The notes below the pieces were generated by a model, which ran no database searches, had not been told where the DNA came from, and was given only the letters and a program-made list of their open reading frames with translations. A program made the translations under genes and the position numbers. This document shows, piece by piece, positions 19,872 to 30,424 of a stretch of 64,000 nucleotides of DNA (position 1 is the first letter of the stretch; each line of letters begins with the position of its first letter). This stretch comes from Gammaproteobacteria bacterium (lineage in GTDB: Bacteria; Pseudomonadota; Gammaproteobacteria; Steroidobacterales; XN24): positions 124,001-188,000 of the forward strand of contig JAHEFR010000001.1 of assembly GCA_024640085.1 (NCBI GenBank), read 5' to 3'.

Positions 19872-21218
19872 TCAATCCTCTGTCCTGATATGCCGCCGTA
19901 TCCGGCGGGTCATCCACCACACGCCGGCGACAACGAAGGGGACGGATATTCCGGCCGCCAGCGTGGGTCTGACTGGCACGCCGTAGGAGGCTGCTGCGTC
20001 GAGGGCGACCTTGATCAGGCCGACGGTGTAATAGCTGATGGCGGCCACCGACAGGCCTTCGACGGTCTGCTGGAGACGCAGCTGGAGCCGGGCCCGGCGA
20101 TTCATTTCCGCCAGGACCTGGAGATTCTGGGATTCGATGGCAACGTCCACTTTTGCCTGCAGGAGATCGGTCGCGCGATCGATTCGGCGGGACAGGCTTT
20201 CCAGCTGATCCTCCACCGACTGACAGGTGCGGATCGCAGGCCCGAGACGCCGTTCCAGAAACTTTCCGATTGTGGACATACCGGAGAATTTAATCTCGCG
20301 GAGGTCGTCCAGTCTCCGGGTGACCAGATCGTAGTAGGCACGAGTTGCCGCGAAGCGTTGATTGGTCGTGGACCGGTAGCGTTCGACTTCCGCGGCAAGA
20401 GAGGTGAGTTCATCCAGGAGGCGTCGCTCCGTTGAGACATCGCCCAGGCCTCCGAACTCGTCCATGACGTCGGCAAGCTGACGGTCGAGCCGCGCCGCCC
20501 GCGGCCCGATGTCTTTCGCGTCCGGCAGCCCCAGCAGTGCCATGGTCCGGTAGGCCTCCAGCTCCAGCAGCCGCTGCAGCGTCCGTCCCGACTGGAACTC
20601 GCTCAGACCGGTGTTGCAGATGAGGATCCTGCCGAACCCGTCGCCATGCAGGCGCAGCGTCGTAAAAATCCGGGCCCGCTCATCGACGATCCTGCTACCG
20701 AACAGCGTCTGACCCTCGAACCAGCGTGACAGCTCTGGCCCGAACGGGTCCGGTCCCTCGGTTCTCAGCATCGTCACGTGGACGCCGGCGATCAGGACCC
20801 CCGGAGTAGATGCCAGCCAATCCTCCGGCACGATGTCCGCAGCGGTTTCCGCGAACGGCGGATCGCAGGATCCTGGCCTGAGGAAGGTGTACGAGGAAAA
20901 TTCGGTATGCCGTTCCCAGCGCAGCTCGAAGCCGCCCATCTCCTGGTAGTAACAGCTTGCTTCAGGGTCGGGGAGATTGGCACCACAGCGACGGGCCAGG
21001 CGGGAGACGTGGTCGAAGGCAGCGTCGACGGCGCAGTCCCGGTCCTGGAACACCATGCTCGAGGCTCTGACCGGCGGGCGTATCAGGGGGGACGGGCGGG
21101 CATGGATCTCCTGGTAGAGAAGATGCCGGTGCGGATGCAATTCTACGCGGCCCACCAGGGACCGTCGGCGCGCTTCCTGGCCGGCCGTGGTCGCATCTCT
21201 GGTGTCGTGGCCGCTCAT
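19872..21218 (-). CDS. DUF3422 family protein
   Basis: This 448-residue protein has the N-terminal signature HLLYQEIHARPSP, a long central region predicted to be mostly helical, and two C-terminal hydrophobic segments (LSVAAISYYTVGLIKVAL and AAGISVPFVVAGVWW) split by PVRP. This is the layout of the DUF3422 family, membrane proteins of unknown function. ATG 21218 is preferred because GGGGAGGG precedes it; the open frame runs to 21356 but would overlap the divergent cyclase gene. Nothing in the neighbourhood explains its job. Confidence 0.82.
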   Translation of the reverse strand: MSGHDTRDATTAGQEARRRSLVGRVELHPHRHLLYQEIHARPSPLIRPPVRASSMVFQDRDCAVDAAFDHVSRLARRCGANLPDPEASCYYQEMGGFELRWERHTEFSSYTFLRPGSCDPPFAETAADIVPEDWLASTPGVLIAGVHVTMLRTEGPDPFGPELSRWFEGQTLFGSRIVDERARIFTTLRLHGDGFGRILICNTGLSEFQSGRTLQRLLELEAYRTMALLGLPDAKDIGPRAARLDRQLADVMDEFGGLGDVSTERRLLDELTSLAAEVERYRSTTNQRFAATRAYYDLVTRRLDDLREIKFSGMSTIGKFLERRLGPAIRTCQSVEDQLESLSRRIDRATDLLQAKVDVAIESQNLQVLAEMNRRARLQLRLQQTVEGLSVAAISYYTVGLIKVALDAAASYGVPVRPTLAAGISVPFVVAGVWWMTRRIRRHIRTED

Positions 21219-21339
21219 GTCGAACCCTCCCCAATGAAGCAACACAAGAATATGCCATGCCGCGGCTCCTTGCCGACCCGCCATCCGCAACACGGGCTGT
21301 CCATGTTCAGCGCAGACCTGCCTAGGTAGAATCCGACGG

Positions 21340-23466
21340 ATGAGCCCTGCCGACAAACGACAGCGCCCGGACGAGGCCTCGCTGGATGGCGAACTGGACG
21401 CGCTGGTCGAGTACCTGGCGCGCCGCTACCACGCCGGCGCCGGCGGGTCGGTCGTCCTCTGGGAGCAGCTGCCTGACGCCGAGCGAAAGGTGTTCCTGTC
21501 CCGAGCGCGGCAGACCCTGGTCGCCATCCACGCCGGCGGGTACCGGATCACGCATTCACCTGAGGTCGTGGACGAGGGGGCCCCGGCGGGTCTCGCGTCG
21601 GACCCGGATGCCCTGAAACTCCGGATCGCGGAGGCCGAGCATTTCCTCCACGCGGGCGAACCATTGCTGGCTTTCAACGAAGTCCAGCTGGGTCTGGAGT
21701 CATGGCCAGAGAGTGTTCGCCTGAGACAGCTCCAGGGGCTGGCACTGGCACGGAGTGGGGCGACCCGGCGCGCCAATGCCGTGCTGCAGGCGCTTGCCGA
21801 CGAAGGGGTGAGCGATGGCGAGACCCTGGGTCTGCTGGCCCGCACCCACAAGGACATCGGCCTTTCGGCCCTGGATCCCCGGGACAAGCTCGTGCACCTG
21901 ACGGCGGCTTTCCGGATCTACGACAAGGCCTATCGCGATTCGGCCGAGCGTGGCCGGATGGAGGATGCCTATTACACCGGCATCAATGCCGCCACCCTGG
22001 CCCTGCTGCTCAACGATGAGGCCAGAAGCCGGCGTCTGGCGACGGAGGTCAGGGCATTATGCCTACAGGAGCTGGAGAAGCAGGTCTCCGACGACGCCGC
22101 CTACTGGCTGCAGGCGACCCTGGGGGAGGCGGCCCTTATTCTCGGTGAACTGGGCCATGCCCGTTCCGCCTACGAGCAGGCCGCGGGCCTGGCCGGCCAC
22201 CGCTACGGGGATCTGGCCTCCACCCGGCGCCAGGCCAAACTGCTGCTGACCCATCGGGGCGAGCACGCCGAGTGGCTGGGGGCCGCGCTGGCGACTCCAC
22301 CAGTCCTCGTGTTCACCGGGCATATGATCGATGCGCCTGGCCGCGGCACGCCACGATTTCCGCCAGAGCTGGAGGAGCGGGTCGCGATTTCCGTCCGCGA
22401 CACCATCGATTCGATTCAGCCCCTGGCCGCCTACGGTTCGGCTGCCTGCGGTAGCGACATCCTTTGCCTGGAGGCGGTGATGGAACTCGGGGGCGAGACC
22501 CACATCGTTCTGCCGTTCCCGCCGGCGGCTTTCCGCGAAGTCAGCGTGGACTTCGCCGGGAGGGGCGACTGGGGACGCCGATTCGAACGCGTGATCGAGG
22601 CGGCGGAAAGTGTCACAGTCGCCAGTGATCACCGCGCCTCCGGCAGCGTCTCGGCCTTCGAGTACGCCAATCTCATCCTGACGGGCATGGGCAGCCTGAG
22701 GGCGGAGGGCCTGGGGGCAGATGTCGTCGGGCTGGCCGTATGGGATGGGCAGCCTGGCGACGGAGGGGGCGGCACCGGGTCTGCCGTGGAGCTGTGGCGA
22801 CAGCGCGGATACCCGGTGGAGCACGTGCATCCAGGGATCCCGTCCGGACATGAGGGAGCGCCCCTGACGTCCTGCGCCGAGGACACGGGTGACGGGTTGC
22901 CTGTCAATGGATTCCGTCATGAGATCAAGGCCATGCTGTTTGCCGACGCTGTGGGCTACAGCAAGCTGACCGAGGACCAGATACCCATCTTCATATCCAA
23001 TTTCCTCGGTTCCGTGGGACGGCTGAGCAAGCGAAGCGACCATCGACCCATCCACTCCGAAACCGCTGGCGACGGCCTGTACATGGTCTTCTGCAGCGTC
23101 GCCGACGCCGGGCGCTACGCCCTGGCCCTGAGCGAGCTGGTGCATTCCGTGGACTGGGTTGGGGAAGGGCTGCCCGCCGATCTGGACCTGCGCATCGCCC
23201 TCCATTGCGGACCGATTTTCTGCGGGACCGATCCCGTCACCGGCCGGCCTCTCTACACGGGCCCGCATACGAGCAGGACCGCCCGAATCGAGCCGATCAC
23301 GCCTCCGGGCCAGGTCTACGCCAGCGGAGCCTTCGCCGCAGTCGCCGCGGCGGCCGGAGCCGAGGGCTTCGAGTTCCGTTATGTCGGTCGAACCCAGCTG
23401 GCCAAGAAATACGGGTCGCTGCCCCTGTTCCACGTCAGGAGCGCGGCGTTTCCACAGACGACTTGA
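21340..23466 (+). CDS. TPR / SLOG-like / class III nucleotide cyclase fusion
   Basis: This 708-residue cytosolic protein has three parts. Residues about 80-320 are alpha-helical repeats resembling the TRAFs-binding (DUF4071) region seen in other bacterial signalling proteins. Residues about 323-470 look like a SLOG-type Rossmann domain: a GHMIDAP start, then AAYGSAACGSDILCLEA and THIVLPFPP. Residues about 530-700 form a class III cyclase: FADAVGYS with metal Asp536, SETAGDGL with Asp578, the Gly-rich LHCGPIF, and RTARIEP with the transition-state Arg. Glu574 replaces the Lys usual in adenylate cyclases, which hints at guanylate or altered specificity; the usual Asn is Ser. TAGAAT lies 8 nt before the start. 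Confidence 0.8.
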   Translation: MSPADKRQRPDEASLDGELDALVEYLARRYHAGAGGSVVLWEQLPDAERKVFLSRARQTLVAIHAGGYRITHSPEVVDEGAPAGLASDPDALKLRIAEAEHFLHAGEPLLAFNEVQLGLESWPESVRLRQLQGLALARSGATRRANAVLQALADEGVSDGETLGLLARTHKDIGLSALDPRDKLVHLTAAFRIYDKAYRDSAERGRMEDAYYTGINAATLALLLNDEARSRRLATEVRALCLQELEKQVSDDAAYWLQATLGEAALILGELGHARSAYEQAAGLAGHRYGDLASTRRQAKLLLTHRGEHAEWLGAALATPPVLVFTGHMIDAPGRGTPRFPPELEERVAISVRDTIDSIQPLAAYGSAACGSDILCLEAVMELGGETHIVLPFPPAAFREVSVDFAGRGDWGRRFERVIEAAESVTVASDHRASGSVSAFEYANLILTGMGSLRAEGLGADVVGLAVWDGQPGDGGGGTGSAVELWRQRGYPVEHVHPGIPSGHEGAPLTSCAEDTGDGLPVNGFRHEIKAMLFADAVGYSKLTEDQIPIFISNFLGSVGRLSKRSDHRPIHSETAGDGLYMVFCSVADAGRYALALSELVHSVDWVGEGLPADLDLRIALHCGPIFCGTDPVTGRPLYTGPHTSRTARIEPITPPGQVYASGAFAAVAAAAGAEGFEFRYVGRTQLAKKYGSLPLFHVRSAAFPQTT

Positions 23467-23479
23467 ACCGAAGCCTGGC

Positions 23480-23902
23480 CTATCGCGAGAGAGCTTCGGT
23501 TCGGATCGCCGCTCCGTACCCGAGAGCGTCGAAGAAATCCTGGTAGGCCTCCGGGTCCTCCACCAGTTCGCCGTAGAAATAGGCGCAGGCGCGCACCGAG
23601 TACTGTTCCGCGCCCATGGGGCGGACCATGACTACCAGTTGTAACCGCCGTCCGGACACGTACTTGGTGCCATAGGCAAGCCCCAGCGGAGGCTCGGTAT
23701 CGTCCACGACGAACTCCAGGTCCTGCATGGCCGACATTACGCTCCGCAGCAGCGTCAGCTCGTCGCCGGCCTGCCACTGGCGCGTCTGGATTTCGCGCTG
23801 CCGGGCATAATCCCCCGGCAGGGTCATGACCGTTTCCGGCCCCGCGCCGGCATGGGCCAGGCAGGACAGCCCGAGGGTCAGCAGGACGATCAGCGTTTTC
23901 AT
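23480..23902 (-). CDS. Small secreted protein, paralogue of the upstream lipoproteins
   Basis: This 140-residue protein has a signal peptide (MKTLIVLLTLGLSCLAHA). The mature part shares a pattern with the next two genes upstream: QDLEF, a glycine-containing turn, a beta strand ending VVMVRP, and DPEAYQDFFDAL near the end. I do not recognise a named family. It overlaps the previous gene by 4 nt (ATGA), so the set is translated as one operon. It has no lipobox Cys at the right place, unlike the 24919 and 25416 genes. It lies 13 nt from the convergent cyclase gene. Confidence 0.7.
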   Translation of the reverse strand: MKTLIVLLTLGLSCLAHAGAGPETVMTLPGDYARQREIQTRQWQAGDELTLLRSVMSAMQDLEFVVDDTEPPLGLAYGTKYVSGRRLQLVVMVRPMGAEQYSVRACAYFYGELVEDPEAYQDFFDALGYGAAIRTEALSR

Positions 23903-24498
23903 AGCTGCTGCTGTTCGTAGAACAGGCTGGTGCCGAGCAGATCGAAGAACCGCTGAAATATGTCGGGGTCGTGGATGGGCTCCATCCGGGTGGTATTGCC
24001 GTCGGTGTTGAAGACTTCTCGCTGGAGGGTCAGCCGGACACGGAAGCCGTCTTCGCCGCCCGTGCGCTCGGGCATGATCAGCAGGCTGGCCCGCACTTCC
24101 TGCTCCTCGTCCCAGGCGGGTGGGCCCTGTCCGGCCATCAGGCCGATAGCGATGTAGCCAACGACCTGGACGGGATTCACCGCAGAGCCCCGCTTGGACG
24201 CCATCACGAGACCGACCTCGGCGTGGGTGCGACGCACGGTAAAGCCCAGATCCTGCAGGGCTGTGCCCGAGGCGGCCAGCAAGCGCTGTTCAGTGACGTC
24301 GGAGAATCGTCGGGTCTCGGTTGCCCGCCATGTGGGCGCGTCTTCGTCCAGTTCAAGGTAGTCATGGGCGGGCCACAGACCCTGGCAGCCCACCATGGCC
24401 ATGACGACGAGGACCATGCCCCCGGCGCGGCTGCCCCGGGCGAAGGAGCCTGGTGTCCTCGTCGATTCCCCCACCCTGCTGCGGATCGCGGCGGGCAT
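23899..24498 (-). CDS. Putative envelope protein, second paralogue of the set
   Basis: From ATG 24498 this is a 199-residue protein with a long basic N-terminus before a hydrophobic segment and AMVGC, a weak lipobox. ATG 24417 would give a short, conventional lipoprotein signal (172 residues). The mature part shares QDLGF near its start and DPDIFQRFFDLLGTSLF near its end with its neighbours, with an inserted segment (GYIAIGLMAGQ) in between. Function unknown. It is coupled to the gene on each side. Confidence 0.65.
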   Translation of the reverse strand: MPAAIRSRVGESTRTPGSFARGSRAGGMVLVVMAMVGCQGLWPAHDYLELDEDAPTWRATETRRFSDVTEQRLLAASGTALQDLGFTVRRTHAEVGLVMASKRGSAVNPVQVVGYIAIGLMAGQGPPAWDEEQEVRASLLIMPERTGGEDGFRVRLTLQREVFNTDGNTTRMEPIHDPDIFQRFFDLLGTSLFYEQQQL

Positions 24499-24499
24499 A

Positions 24500-24919
24500 T
24501 CAATTCACCCGGCCCGCCGAGATGAATGACGACTGCTGCAGAGAGTTGAAGAAGGTCTGATAGACCTCCGGGTCGTCGATACGCTGGTCGCCCCGCTGAG
24601 CGTTTGCGCGGACCAGGACGGCGTCCTCACCCCTGGGGCGGACGGTGACGGTGAGGGTCACGAGGCCGTCCCGGGATCGTTTGCCGGTGACCGAACCGAG
24701 CCCGGCGTCCGCATTTTCGACCAGGAACCCGAGGTCCTGAAGCGTGTCGATGATATCCCTCATGACGTCGACCTCGTTGGTCGACTCGAAGACCCGGGAC
24801 TGGTAGCTGCGCAACTCGAGCTGACTCTCGTCAGTATCGAAGATAGCCTTCTGTGGCGCCGCCGCGCAGCCGGTGGCGAGCAGTACCACCACCGCCAGCG
24901 TGATTCGCATTCTTGCCAT
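24500..24919 (-). CDS. Putative lipoprotein, first paralogue of the set
   Basis: This 139-residue protein has a clear lipoprotein signal (VVLLATGC). The mature domain begins with a variable stretch, then DTLQDLGFLV, TVTVRPRG and DPEVYQTFFNSLQQSSF. The last motif is shared with the two genes downstream, showing that the three arose by duplication. I chose ATG 24919 because GGAGGC sits 9 nt upstream; the open frame extends further but has no coding character. No function is assigned. Confidence 0.7.
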   Translation of the reverse strand: MARMRITLAVVVLLATGCAAAPQKAIFDTDESQLELRSYQSRVFESTNEVDVMRDIIDTLQDLGFLVENADAGLGSVTGKRSRDGLVTLTVTVRPRGEDAVLVRANAQRGDQRIDDPEVYQTFFNSLQQSSFISAGRVN

Positions 24920-24963
24920 GACGGTTATGCCTCCGGTCCCAATGAGCGGTGAATGAGCGGCGA

Positions 24964-25416
24964 TCAGAATCGAGAGGTGCGATACGAGAAGTCCCGTACC
25001 GCGCCGATGTCGTCGAATCGGACCACCACCGTCAGTGTGCGCTGGGAGCTGCTCGATGCGCCGGATTTGGCGCCGAAAAGGCCGCCGGCCCCGCCGCCGG
25101 CTCCGCCGCTGGCTCCTCCGGCCCCGCCCAGCACGCCAATGGAGCTGTCCGAATAGACGCGATCGGTCGATATCCGGTCGTACACCCAGACCTCCCGACG
25201 GTCCTCGTCCGTGGACACGATGTTGGGCGAACCCAGGGTCTCGAGGACCTGGGCTGCGCTCATCCCCACCCTGATCCCGCTCTGGACCGAGCCCACAGTC
25301 AGCTCGTCCTGCTGGTTGGCCATGGTCCGGGCTTCCGCGATGTCCTCCCTGTGCTGGGCCGCGGTGCAACCGGATGCAATAGCGCCAGCAAGTATCAAAA
25401 CTGCCACATACCGCAT
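24964..25416 (-). CDS. Lipoprotein with SmpA/OmlA-like fold and Gly-Ala-rich segment
   Basis: This 150-residue protein has a good lipobox (AIASGC) and a GGAGG site before ATG 25416. The part IRVGMSAAQVLETLGSPNIV with VWVYD is the pattern of the small SmpA/OmlA (BamE-like) domain. A Gly/Ala/Ser-rich linker (GGAGGASGGAGGGAGG) and a final strand (LTVVVRFDDIGAV) follow. It is first in the four-gene operon. The true BamE is shorter and lacks the Gly-rich segment, so this is probably a different member of the superfamily. Confidence 0.72.
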   Translation of the reverse strand: MRYVAVLILAGAIASGCTAAQHREDIAEARTMANQQDELTVGSVQSGIRVGMSAAQVLETLGSPNIVSTDEDRREVWVYDRISTDRVYSDSSIGVLGGAGGASGGAGGGAGGLFGAKSGASSSSQRTLTVVVRFDDIGAVRDFSYRTSRF

Positions 25417-26627: not shown

Positions 26628-27749
26628 TCAGGACAACGTCAGGCGGAAGACCCGGGACCGCCGCGAACTGACTCTGGGAAAGCGCGACCACAGCTGGTGG
26701 ACTCTGGTATTGGTCTCGAGTTCGTGATTGGTCTCGACGAACCTGACCCCCCGGGCCCGCAGGGTGTCGAACATGTCGGCCAGACCGATGGCAGTGAGGA
26801 TGCCTGTCGGCACGCCTCGCCGCGAGCCGGCGAGCAGAAAATCCACCGCCGTCGGCTGCCGGTAATCCTTCAGGATGTGCAGGAATCCGAAGGGCAGGAG
26901 CCTGCCATTAGCCTTCTGGAAACCACGGCTCAGGTTCGGCATGCCGACCAGGAACGCAGCCAGTTCGTCGTCCTTCGAGTAAAGCAGCTTGACGAAATGA
27001 GGGTCGAGAAAGCTGAAATACTTGTCCGCGTAATAGTCCATCTGCCGGCGGGTCAGCGGAACGACGCCATACAGGGGTTCGAACGCTTCCTCCAGGACGT
27101 CCCAGAGAGCGTCCAGATGCCCTTTCAATTCCTTGCCGGACCGGCAGGTCAGTACCCGGTAGTCCTGGTAGCCGCCGTAGCGCTTCTTAACCTGGTCGAC
27201 GAAGGGGATCTCGTCCGGGACGGCAATGCGATAAATGAGATAGTCGGCGTCCTTCTGGAACCCGTAGGCCTCGAGGAGTCTCTGGTAATAGGGGTGGTTG
27301 TAGCAGCCGCTAATGGTCGGCACATGCTCGAAACCTTCGATGAGGAGACCCTCCACATCCAGGTCAGAGAAACCGTGGGGGCCGGTCATTTCAACGCATC
27401 CCTCGCGGATGAGCCAGTCCCGGACTGAATCCAGCAGGAGATCGCAGACCGCCCTGTCGTCAGTGGTCTCGAACCATCCGAACCGGCCCCGCTTGCGGCC
27501 GAGTTTCTGCTCCTCGAGAGAGTTGATGATCCCGCAGATACGCCCGACCGGTTGGCCGTCCTTCATGGCGAGCAGCAACCTGACCCGGCTGACTTCGAAA
27601 ACGGGGTTCTTGCCTGGGTCGAAATAGGCGATCTCGTCCCGGAACAGTTGCGGAACGTAACTGGTATTGCCCCGATAGTGGCCATAGGGGAAAGCCACCC
27701 AGCGCCTCAGGTCCCGGCGATTCTCGATCTCGAGTAATTCGAGGCTCAT
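26628..27749 (-). CDS. GNAT-fold protein resembling bacterial ceramide synthase
   Basis: This 373-residue protein starts with the family segment FPYGHYRGNTSYVPQLFRDE and continues with PGKNPVFE and DGQPVGRICGIIN, a GNAT acetyl-CoA-binding-type core. The central FGWFET and the HPYYQRLLEAYGF region also match. This is the pattern I remember for the GNAT-like proteins often mislabelled dATP pyrophosphohydrolase, which include the bacterial ceramide synthase (bCerS) of Caulobacter. That enzyme would N-acylate a sphingoid base. The match is by eye, and a different N-acyltransferase role is possible. It is the last gene of the minus-strand run beginning at 30424, about 100 nt after the oxygenase gene. 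Confidence 0.72.
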   Translation of the reverse strand: MSLELLEIENRRDLRRWVAFPYGHYRGNTSYVPQLFRDEIAYFDPGKNPVFEVSRVRLLLAMKDGQPVGRICGIINSLEEQKLGRKRGRFGWFETTDDRAVCDLLLDSVRDWLIREGCVEMTGPHGFSDLDVEGLLIEGFEHVPTISGCYNHPYYQRLLEAYGFQKDADYLIYRIAVPDEIPFVDQVKKRYGGYQDYRVLTCRSGKELKGHLDALWDVLEEAFEPLYGVVPLTRRQMDYYADKYFSFLDPHFVKLLYSKDDELAAFLVGMPNLSRGFQKANGRLLPFGFLHILKDYRQPTAVDFLLAGSRRGVPTGILTAIGLADMFDTLRARGVRFVETNHELETNTRVHQLWSRFPRVSSRRSRVFRLTLS

Positions 27750-27845
27750 GGATTCTCGGGTGTCCTCATAAGGGCAGGGGAGGGATCGGCGCTCGCGAGC
27801 AGCCCAATCGATCCGGTGTCCGGGCCCGCGGGTATCTCCAGAGGC

Positions 27846-28571
27846 TCAGTAGAACTTCACCTTCTTGCCGATGACCCGGTCGCGGAGTTTCCAGTAAAGA
27901 TTGTCGGGGCTTACCACTATGATGAACAGCCGCCGCATGCGGCCCTCGGGGCACTTGATCTCCCTGACCGCGTGCCAGGCATGGTCGGTGCGTTCGAAGA
28001 TCAGGCTGTAGTTGCCGATGGAGCGGGCCGGTATCTCGGCGACGAAATCCTCGTAGCCAGGCGCGCTCTTGAAATCGAGCCTGCCGCCGTCGTCGAGCAC
28101 CAGGGTATCGCCCCCCCAGGCCGGATCCCATTCGCCTTCTGCGTTGAAGTAGAACAGGTGGGACCCGTGCTCGCGTTTCGAGTCGGTGTGGGGTGACACG
28201 GAGCAGCCATTGGGCGTGTAGTGCCAGTGGAAGCGGAACTCCACCTTCTTGCCCCCCATCAGCCTGGCCACGGCCCGCCGGTACCTGTCGCTGCGGAGTT
28301 CGGCGATGAAGTCCTGCCAGGGCGCGGGGACATCGATTTCCGGGGTCCACTCCAGGGCATAGCGGTCATGGGGTTCCTGGCCGGCAAGGCGCCGGTATCC
28401 GAAGATTTTTTCGAACATCGAGATGTCCGGCATGTTGTCCAGGAGCCGCTGGTATCCGTCAGCCGTGATCAGCCCCTCGGGGTTCGCGTAGGGGAAGGGC
28501 ATAGTAGATCTGAACGCCTTCGGATCGATGGCTTCCAGCTTTTCGAAATCCAGGTAGCGATTCATGATCAT
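27846..28571 (-). CDS. Fe(II)/2-oxoglutarate-dependent oxygenase-like protein
   Basis: This 241-residue protein has a double-stranded beta-helix pattern with the iron motif SPHTDS (H128, D130), a distal His in DHAWHAV (H197 or H200), and an Arg 13-17 residues later (RMRR) that would bind 2-oxoglutarate. Such enzymes hydroxylate small molecules, lipids or proteins. ATG 28571 or 28565 are both possible starts. It is one base from the glycosyltransferase-like gene upstream and so lies in the same operon. In this context hydroxylation of a lipid or sugar is plausible; the substrate is not shown. Confidence 0.75.
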   Translation of the reverse strand: MIMNRYLDFEKLEAIDPKAFRSTMPFPYANPEGLITADGYQRLLDNMPDISMFEKIFGYRRLAGQEPHDRYALEWTPEIDVPAPWQDFIAELRSDRYRRAVARLMGGKKVEFRFHWHYTPNGCSVSPHTDSKREHGSHLFYFNAEGEWDPAWGGDTLVLDDGGRLDFKSAPGYEDFVAEIPARSIGNYSLIFERTDHAWHAVREIKCPEGRMRRLFIIVVSPDNLYWKLRDRVIGKKVKFY

Positions 28572-29477
28572 CTATGCCGCCAGGGGTGGGGTTCGATCGA
28601 CGAGTTCGAGTGCATCGTGCCGCACGTGATTGTGCTTCATTTCGTCGCGTACCGTGGCCTCGTCGATGACGCCCTTCTCCAGGCACTCCCGCAGCAGGCC
28701 GAAGAAGAACTTCTCCTGATTGGGGTCCGGGTGGGGCTTGTAGCGGCCGAGCAGGCCGTACTCGCCGAAGACCTTGACGCGCAGTTCGTTCAGCCGGCCC
28801 AGCATCGGATATTTGCGGAGTTTGTCGGCCGGAACGAAGTCCACGGGTAGCCCGCTCTTCCAGGGCTGGGTCCGCCGCTTGGTGTTGTGCAACAGCTTGG
28901 TCTTCTCTGTCAGGTGGTCGAAGTCGTTCCATTCGTCTTCCAGATAGCCCACATTCTCCCGCGGCTCGTCACGGAGGACGATCCAGTCCTTGTAGTCGCG
29001 CTTGAACTCGAACATCTCTCCGAATTCCTTCTCAGGCTCCCAGTGTCGCAGCCTGGCGCAGTCCAGCAGCATCACGCTGGTCGCGATCTGCCAGGCCTTC
29101 TCCGACTTGTCGGATCGGTGACGGCCCATGACGGCCTTGCCGCCCATGTCCCGCGTGAGCAGTTCATGGATATCTCCGACAGCAAATATGTCGGGGTCGA
29201 TCACGACAGCGCGCCCCTGGTGGCCCATCAGCTTCGGTGGCATGAACCTTAGCGGCGTGAACGATTGCAGGTCCGACATATGCCATATCCGGGTCGCTCC
29301 GCCTCGCAGGAAAGGCTGGCCCTCACGCTCGTGCAGGAAGGGGAAGTCCTTCACGTGCATAATCTCTACACTGAAATCGCCCCCGTGGGCCGAGTTCCGC
29401 TTTAATGAATAGGCCGACACCAGTGCGCCGAGCCACTGCCGTTCATTGGTCTGGATGAAAACTTTCATGTCCATCAC
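28572..29477 (-). CDS. GT8-like glycosyltransferase, paralogue 1
   Basis: This 301-residue protein resembles the GT-A fold of GT8/glycogenin-type enzymes. The N-terminal strand is followed by LVSAYSLKRNS, a DPD metal motif (94-96 in VVIDPDIF), the invariant MPPKLMGHQGRAV just before it, and LLHNTKRRTQPW (from about 195), which resembles the HxGxxKPW element. It has two paralogues in the window (39867 and 52265) that share all these blocks and the C-terminal HNHVRHDALEL. Donor and acceptor are unknown. It overlaps the upstream sulfotransferase gene by 4 nt. Confidence 0.78.
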   Translation of the reverse strand: MMDMKVFIQTNERQWLGALVSAYSLKRNSAHGGDFSVEIMHVKDFPFLHEREGQPFLRGGATRIWHMSDLQSFTPLRFMPPKLMGHQGRAVVIDPDIFAVGDIHELLTRDMGGKAVMGRHRSDKSEKAWQIATSVMLLDCARLRHWEPEKEFGEMFEFKRDYKDWIVLRDEPRENVGYLEDEWNDFDHLTEKTKLLHNTKRRTQPWKSGLPVDFVPADKLRKYPMLGRLNELRVKVFGEYGLLGRYKPHPDPNQEKFFFGLLRECLEKGVIDEATVRDEMKHNHVRHDALELVDRTPPLAA

Positions 29478-30424
29478 GCAGCACTCCCTGCATCCAACAT
29501 CGGTCCCGGCGAGGATTCCTTGCTGGTGTATCCGTAGGCGGGCAGCAGACGCTCGTCGACCATGCCGTCGATGACCGCGATTTGCTCGTCGTCGAAATAG
29601 TCCCGGTAGCCACCGACTTTCGCCTTGCGAACCTTGTAGGTATTGGGATCGCTGGTGTCACGGGCCTGCACCCGGCTGCCGCTGCGCCAGAAATAGTTCT
29701 GCGACTCCATCTTGCGCATGTTCTCGACCGTGGCGAATTCCACGGCGCCCTGGACGGCTTCTCTGTCGACGTCCTCGCCGAGAAACCCCATCAACCGGGC
29801 GAGCTGCGCTTCGGTGTCCGAGCGGAGATCTTCGTATCTCACTACCAGGATATTGTCGAAGTTCTCCAGTTCCCGGATCCAGCCGTTCATGTAGTCGATG
29901 ATCCTCGGCAGGCCCTGGTTTCGATCCATGACGAAATCGTAGATGGAAATGTCCGCCTCGTGATCCGGATACTTGTTGAGGGCCTTCTTGTAGGGCCGCA
30001 TGCGGAATTTCCACTGGAAAAACTGGGAGACGGCCACATCTTGCGGCTTGCGCACCAGCAGCACCGTCCTGTGTCGGTAGAAGTCCTCTCTGGAGCCCGG
30101 ATTTCCGAGATAGGCGCGCAGGTAATTGTCGTGCGTGAAGAAGATCTTTGGCACGCGCCGGTCGAGCTTATGGAAGTTGTCGAAGCCCATAATGATGCGG
30201 TCCGGGAGCTTGCGGGCCAGTTGGTAGTAGCGGGAGATCATCACCCGCACCCAGGTCCGGCCACTCTTGCCGTAGGAGGCGAATACGTAGTCGCACCGCT
30301 GGAACTTCCAGTTATCCTCGCGGCCGCGTCGCCAGCGCTCCAGGGCGAGGCCTTTCTCCTCGCTCACGAACAGGGACGCCAGGCGTACCAGCCACTTGGT
30401 AATCCGTTTTGCAACGATGTGCAT
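29474..30424 (-). CDS. Short PAPS-dependent sulfotransferase, paralogue 1
   Basis: This 316-residue protein has the 5'-phosphosulfate loop YGKSGRTW (51-58) and the 3'-phosphate motif VRKPQDVAVSQFFQW (R124, S132). YEDLRSD and KVGGYRDYF near the end match the C-terminal PAPS-binding GxxGxxK/KVG region of Sulfotransfer_1 enzymes. These transfer sulfate from PAPS to hydroxyls of glycans or lipids, usually in the cytosol. It overlaps the GT8-like gene, so both are probably used on one substrate. Three similar genes lie at 48187, 51281 and 53215. Confidence 0.86.
   Translation of the reverse strand: MHIVAKRITKWLVRLASLFVSEEKGLALERWRRGREDNWKFQRCDYVFASYGKSGRTWVRVMISRYYQLARKLPDRIIMGFDNFHKLDRRVPKIFFTHDNYLRAYLGNPGSREDFYRHRTVLLVRKPQDVAVSQFFQWKFRMRPYKKALNKYPDHEADISIYDFVMDRNQGLPRIIDYMNGWIRELENFDNILVVRYEDLRSDTEAQLARLMGFLGEDVDREAVQGAVEFATVENMRKMESQNYFWRSGSRVQARDTSDPNTYKVRKAKVGGYRDYFDDEQIAVIDGMVDERLLPAYGYTSKESSPGPMLDAGSAA

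Follow-up and report, generated by a model that had tools for sequence, protein, structure and literature searches.

BamC (NlpB, PF06804) and BamE (SmpA/OmlA, PF04355), two helper lipoproteins of BAM, are the described proteins that come closest to the locus considered here. BamC is an outer-membrane lipoprotein encoded by one gene, and each chain carries two helix-grip domains behind a long disordered N-terminal region, which is its BamD-binding part. The helix-grip fold is common; for example, START/Bet v 1-like proteins bind lipid or other hydrophobic ligands, and Flpp3 of Francisella is a small single-domain lipoprotein. According to the portions of a 2012 survey that are drawn on here, the first BamC domain starts at residue 101, BamC is absent from Alpha-, Delta- and Epsilonproteobacteria, and BamF, found in Caulobacter, is a different BAM lipoprotein where BamC is missing, with a predicted architecture very unlike that of BamC and a predicted restriction to Alphaproteobacteria (PMC3359395). 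By this description, BamF can be set beside the present cassette, which is missing from the family catalogues searched and appears, as far as its domains are recognized or modeled, to be built on the folds of two BAM helper lipoproteins.

The locus lies in a window of 64 kb (the whole stretch of DNA that was analysed), in which ORF calling placed four minus-strand genes in one run in the order E, S', L, S'' (Table 1), with GC at third codon positions of 0.79–0.82. A preliminary description had proposed that the run is an operon for small envelope proteins, with three paralogues among them, behind a SmpA/OmlA-like gene; this is borne out by the PF04355 match of E and by BLASTP and profile searches, in which S' matches S'' at E = 2e-19 and L at E = 6e-9, S'' matches L at E = 1e-5, and a profile of the three returns S', L and S'' as its sole matches in their own genome at E up to 10. 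The three are therefore true paralogues, beyond chance. The tight packing described for the whole run holds between the paralogues, where S' and L are 1 nt apart and L and S'' share a 4-nt ATGA overlap, but not from E to S', which are separated by 44 nt. The motifs described as common to all three are each exact in two: QDLGF is exact in two and reads QDLEF in S'', VRP is missing from L, and DPxxYQxFF is exact in two and reads DPDIFQRFF in L. A promoter scan found no sigma-70-like site, and the terminator count of 2 is near the chance expectation (1.0, sd 0.9).

Table 1. Features of the four-gene run, with positions in the 64-kb window.
Feature	Position	Strand	Basis
E: BamE-domain (SmpA/OmlA-like) putative lipoprotein, 150 aa, lipobox ASGC (Cys17)	24964..25416	-	PF04355, ORF
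Gly/Ala-rich insert within the BamE domain of E, ~residues 93-119	25060..25140	-	sequence reading
Ser-Arg-Phe codons, C-terminus of E	24967..24975	-	terminal Phe invariant among relatives
S': short paralogue, predicted helix-grip lipoprotein, 139 aa (counted from the ATG at 24919), lipobox ATGC (Cys18)	24500..24919	-	BLASTP, profile, AlphaFold2, Foldseek
L: long paralogue, 199 aa, lipobox MVGC (Cys38)	23899..24498	-	BLASTP, profile, AlphaFold2, Foldseek
Hydrophobic helix insert of L, model residues 109-122	24133..24174	-	AlphaFold2 model, long-form alignment
S'': second short paralogue, 140 aa, degenerate lipobox LGLSC (Cys14)	23480..23902	-	BLASTP, profile

Around the run, the gene at 21340-23466 (+), convergent on the end of the operon, encodes 708 aa that include a TPR-S domain and a guanylate/adenylate cyclase catalytic domain, the latter at 22.0 bits against a cut-off of 21.9, and a DUF3422 protein (E=3.7e-156) is encoded at 19872-21356 (-). 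A diacylglycerol-kinase-type gene starts divergently from the run. The genes at 26628-30424 (-) encode a sulfotransferase, a 2OG-Fe(II) oxygenase-like protein (below cut-off) and two proteins without a Pfam match, and are possibly, at a guess, a glycan or cell-surface modification set.

The cassette products are probably lipid-anchored, judging from their N-terminal sequences. In the alignments, the column of the lipid-anchor Cys is filled in 58 of 58 short-form and 56 of 56 long-form rows, and a lipobox-like sequence precedes it in 55 and 53 of these, respectively; none of the 58 short and 56 long rows has an Asp at +2 after the Cys, and 71 of 79 E partners carry a lipobox Cys by pattern. The preliminary description had one of the genes losing its lipobox, a statement that is not supported: S'' keeps the Cys of this fully occupied column; its lipobox is weak, and with an AHA/G site right after the Cys, ordinary signal-peptidase cleavage stays possible.

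No Pfam or NCBIfam model covers the paralogue domain in the short (58) and long (56) rows, which include the window copies, in agreement with the earlier statement that the shared domain has no named family, and no profile in these libraries assigned it to a known domain of unrelated function. Matches to MksE, OscA, DUF4995, DUF4136, DUF6491, lipo_SCO4651 and others were rejected as weak, each occurring in at most 5 of the scanned relatives and mostly in 1; the best in each library were the lipid-attachment model LPAM_1 (5.8e-4, in 3 of 56 rows) and the lipoprotein model lipo_SCO4651 (3.7e-5, in 1 of 58 rows). A sequence search of the PDB was uninformative (best E 0.39 and 0.096), PADLOC matched none of the four window proteins, no viral contig encoded an S' relative, and no phage record matched the one short relative used as query. 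Among the window proteins, E alone had matches in PHROGs (phrog_3135, function unknown, at 3.4e-7), and similar lipoproteins may thus also occur among phage proteins. A literature search, mostly at abstract level, found no description of such a cassette.

Fold prediction had been named in the preliminary description as a check on the shared domain, and AlphaFold2 models of S' and L (pLDDT 89.9 and 88.0) are both helix-grip, with BamC as their best PDB match; this assignment is well supported as a prediction. S' is modeled as a helix, a strand, a helix, four strands and a long C-terminal helix, and L shows the same topology with the additional helix of Table 1. The first 13 Foldseek rows for S' (best E 1.3e-6) and the first 12 for L (best E 5.5e-5) are BamC or BAM-complex chains C/D, with TM-scores by query length of just 0.26–0.46 for these rows. 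The match to BamC is mainly a match of fold, and VIA places other helix-grip proteins at a similar level: Z for S' is 10.5 with Flpp3, 9.7 with a Bet v 1-like plant protein, 9.6 with the BamC N-domain (2laf) and 9.4 with Chk1 KA1, and Z for L is 9.1 with Chk1 KA1 and 8.4 with the BamC N-domain (2laf). Since AMPK/Chk1 KA1, Bet v 1-like proteins and Flpp3 are tied with BamC or score above it, descent from BamC is not settled by the fold. Flpp3, the best VIA match of S', superposes on it over 93 residues at 2.7 Å (9nlt) and 97 residues at 2.8 Å (6pny), but the two are only 7–9% identical.

The E protein is a BamE-domain lipoprotein barely above the PF04355 cut-off of 23.2 bits (E=1.7e-5, 24.9 bits), and in the genome search it is marginal, at 22.6 bits, or 23.3 bits with its neighbours in frame. 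A separate canonical BamE gene on contig C69 of the same genome scores 86.3 bits; hence, E is not the housekeeping BamE. It differs from BamE in its Gly-rich insert, its fixed C-terminal S-x-F and its tie to the cassette. The equivalent of the insert in 79 partners has a median length of 31 and a median Gly fraction of 0.20, and all 89 distinct E-like proteins, counting that of the window, have a terminal Phe, 87 of them with Ser at -3. Canonical BamE proteins of relatives end in Phe in 2 of 17 cases (17 of 27 loci parsed) and have varied tails. An outer-membrane beta-signal has alternating residues before its C-terminal Phe; this explanation of the terminal Phe of E was dropped because the preceding residues do not alternate.

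Beyond the window, the three-paralogue profile matched 155 stretches in GTDB species genomes, of which 82 encode relatives and 80 were kept as loci; gene order was read in a set of 90 loci after removal of duplicates, with 10 of 232 distinct rows dropped for want of the anchor motif. Elsewhere the genes form a self-contained cassette, as a rule with the BamE-like gene (E) first, followed by the long (L) and then the short one (S). The order long-short is found in 48 of the 90 loci and doubled sets occur as LSSS (13) and LSLS (9), although long and short were assigned by length, so that some short genes occupy the long-gene place without the insert; a short gene stands alone in 10 loci, in 8 of them merely because the long row was dropped. 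Among 133 pairs of adjacent family genes, 59 share a 4-nt overlap (NTGA), and the remaining pairs comprise 31 in over-extended ORFs, 21 with gaps of 0–60 nt and 22 with longer gaps.

Of 101 locus records (those that overlap within a genome being counted separately), 87 have an E-like gene on the same strand within 400 nt. The E-like gene of the window lies just past this limit, as do those of the three window copies (L001-L003) and of L029, a neighbouring ORF having been read too long. A six-frame search found pieces of an E-like gene in L063 and L098 and none in L048 and L067, where there is room for one; the family genes come first at a contig end in L027, L032, L059 and L068, and L100 has no E-like match in its less than 500 upstream bases. 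Among 18 further stretches, ten were read for gene order, and an E-like gene adjoins the family genes in eight of these. No E-like gene, by six-frame search either, was found in L146, where the contig end is reached, or beside the divergent family member of L152 (E=3.3e-13).

Several larger arrangements were also seen. In a 2-Mb genome (L148, 4569-7458), five family genes on both strands surround one BamE-like gene, the largest set seen. Rhodospirillales-type loci (L049, L056, L076, L085, L086 and others) carry L-S-E-L-S double cassettes, with E in the middle where this was read (L049, L089); Roseomonas-type loci have a second long-position gene without the insert, and two gammaproteobacterial loci (L078, L091) have the order long-short-long. 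Clustering of 575 neighbouring ORFs from 79 loci gave no widely recurring neighbour and no link to a pathway. The largest cluster, of a short-chain-dehydrogenase type by our own sequence reading, covers 8 of the 79 loci, and the five-locus clusters are largely from related betaproteobacterial bins.

In the 36 loci that carry a single copy of each gene, pairwise distances are correlated between L and S (r=0.91), L and E (0.61) and S and E (0.57), with 0 of 999 permutations each. This correlation of L with S, together with the lipid-anchor Cys, the hydrophobic helix of L and the terminal Phe of E, suggests that the proteins form a complex, with L paired to S and with the E tail either buried or recognised. 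The explanation preferred here, to which an even chance is given, is an accessory outer-membrane lipoprotein complex that would work like BamE and BamC without being BamC. All cassette products would be anchored by lipid in the inner leaflet of the outer membrane, with E contributing a BamE domain and L and S each contributing a single predicted helix-grip domain like the BamC N-domain. The L and S proteins, often translationally coupled and co-evolving, would be a fixed pair to which E binds in one complex, and both the invariant terminal Phe of E and the hydrophobic stretch inserted in L may serve as contact or membrane-facing elements. The work of such a complex would be accessory to the assembly or maintenance of outer-membrane proteins, comparable to that of the BamE and BamC accessory subunits; the tie of the cassette to Omp85 or BAM, taken as a step by itself, is speculative and rather doubtful.

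Alternatively, the proteins could form a stand-alone outer-membrane lipoprotein complex outside barrel assembly, in which the helix-grip domains would bind lipid or another hydrophobic ligand and the inserts of L and E would dip into the membrane. The equal standing of Bet v 1-like proteins and Flpp3 with BamC in VIA would suit such a complex, as would the strongly hydrophobic L helix (mean 12-residue hydropathy above 1.6 in 51 of the 55 rows parsed out of 56) and the insert of E, which is Gly-rich and mildly hydrophobic. However, Foldseek, which also uses sequence, puts BamC chains first for both models, and the partner is nearly always a BamE-domain protein; a ligand-binding complex of this kind is considered rather unlikely.

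How the cassette relates to BamC itself was assessed with a set of 30 BamC sequences, namely that of E. coli and those of 29 class loci (30 were fetched, and L122 was excluded). With full-length profiles, hhalign gave nothing significant (probabilities of 7% and 32%, the latter resting on the signal peptide). Trimmed profiles scored 25.1 (L) and 23.8 (S) against the BamC N-domain at probabilities of 14–15%; these scores were reached by 0 of 60 column shuffles (maxima 18.8 for L and 18.4 for S), reversed profiles gave 13.2 (L) and 7.9 (S), and against the BamC C-domain the observed scores were reached by 11 of 60 (L) and 4 of 60 (S) shuffles. A permissive alignment of L and BamC spans 121 columns at 6% identity, and most aligned class BamC rows carry, by our own reading, extra sequence that is absent in E. 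coli roughly at the place of the L insert. Distant kinship of L and S with the BamC N-domain is thus likely but unproven. PF06804 matches none of the window proteins, the 58 short and 56 long relatives or the own genome; moreover, the S' and L models hold one helix-grip domain each (S'' is of similar size to S'), only ~12-25 residues separate the lipid Cys from the fold, and two separate paired genes stand where BamC has one. For want of a profile match, a second domain and a long N-terminal region, the cassette proteins are, by these tests, not BamC.

These comparisons also bear on the possibility that the cassette is an alternative accessory module of the BamC/BamE type, belonging to BAM itself or to another Omp85 and replacing BamC where it is missing. 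The presence of two BAM-lipoprotein folds within one cassette would fit this. The own genome has four Omp85-family matches. Of 39 genomes in the own order, counting the own genome, 0 have PF06804 above cut-off (two have N-terminal hits below it), against 66 of 114 in the class. Record titles place many of the 80 loci in Alphaproteobacteria, so that the cassette occurs in lineages from which BamC is reported missing in the portions of the survey cited above (PMC3359395). On the other hand, the cassette is present in only 9 of the 39 own-order genomes, and the other 30 have neither it nor PF06804, which indicates that the cassette is not a general stand-in for BamC; four of the five class genomes with the cassette are without PF06804, but one (G070) has both, too few for a test. 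With the long disordered N-terminal segment of BamC missing and no recurring neighbour in the clustering, replacement of BamC is judged improbable. The same low standing is given to a mobile module in which the BamC helix-grip domain, as an L/S pair with a dedicated BamE paralogue in lineages believed to lack BamC, would dock on an Omp85 machine as an accessory subcomplex that the C-terminal Phe of E holds together.

The cassette is scattered and rare. By record titles and NCBI ranks, loci occur in Alpha-, Beta- and Gammaproteobacteria, Thermodesulfobacteriota, Myxococcota and Planctomycetota, and further loci in Verrucomicrobiota, Acidobacteriota, Omnitrophota, Fusobacteriota and one Bacteroidota bin, although many are metagenome bins and single odd phyla may be misbinned. 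Matches were found in 10 of 59 relatives, in 5 of 114 class genomes and in at least 10 of 299 phylum genomes (up to 13 candidates per genome scored), the own genome being included in each case; given this rarity, the cassette is dispensable in general. Three records are plasmids, namely two Azospirillum megaplasmids with relatives and an 8-kb circular plasmid, whose record gives Acinetobacter baumannii and a paper mill as source, with an intact E-L-S (L101, 4892-6277); a RelE/ParE-type gene and a SulP transporter are neighbours of the latter cassette. A mobile surface or exclusion/competition trait, with lipoproteins blocking the entry of phage, plasmids or toxins, would explain this patchy spread over several phyla and the plasmid copies, but it is very improbable, as PADLOC gave no match for the four window proteins, phage records none for one short relative and viral contigs none for S', no defence-like neighbour recurs, and the 21 alphaproteobacterial rows need just 2 tree changes, which is more like vertical spread.

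In the tree, both short copies of the window are long branches without starred support, and S'' is fast-evolving, with an end branch of 5.95 (median 0.51). In the one sampled genome of the same genus, a plain E-L-S stands, by our own reading, amid other genes, and the extra short copy in the window therefore looks locally changed. The run E, S', L, S'' may thus be a locally rearranged copy of the usual E-L-S cassette, within an explanation that, taken whole, could as readily fail as hold.

Accessory BAM lipoproteins vary by lineage, and BamE-type and BamC-fold lipoproteins joined in one cassette, both in some of the lineages reported to lack BamC and in other phyla, would reveal how subunits of this kind originate and move. 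The cassette offers three small, easily tested domains, and should the link to BAM not hold, it would still be a lipoprotein cassette that is seen in several phyla and that the catalogues searched do not list.
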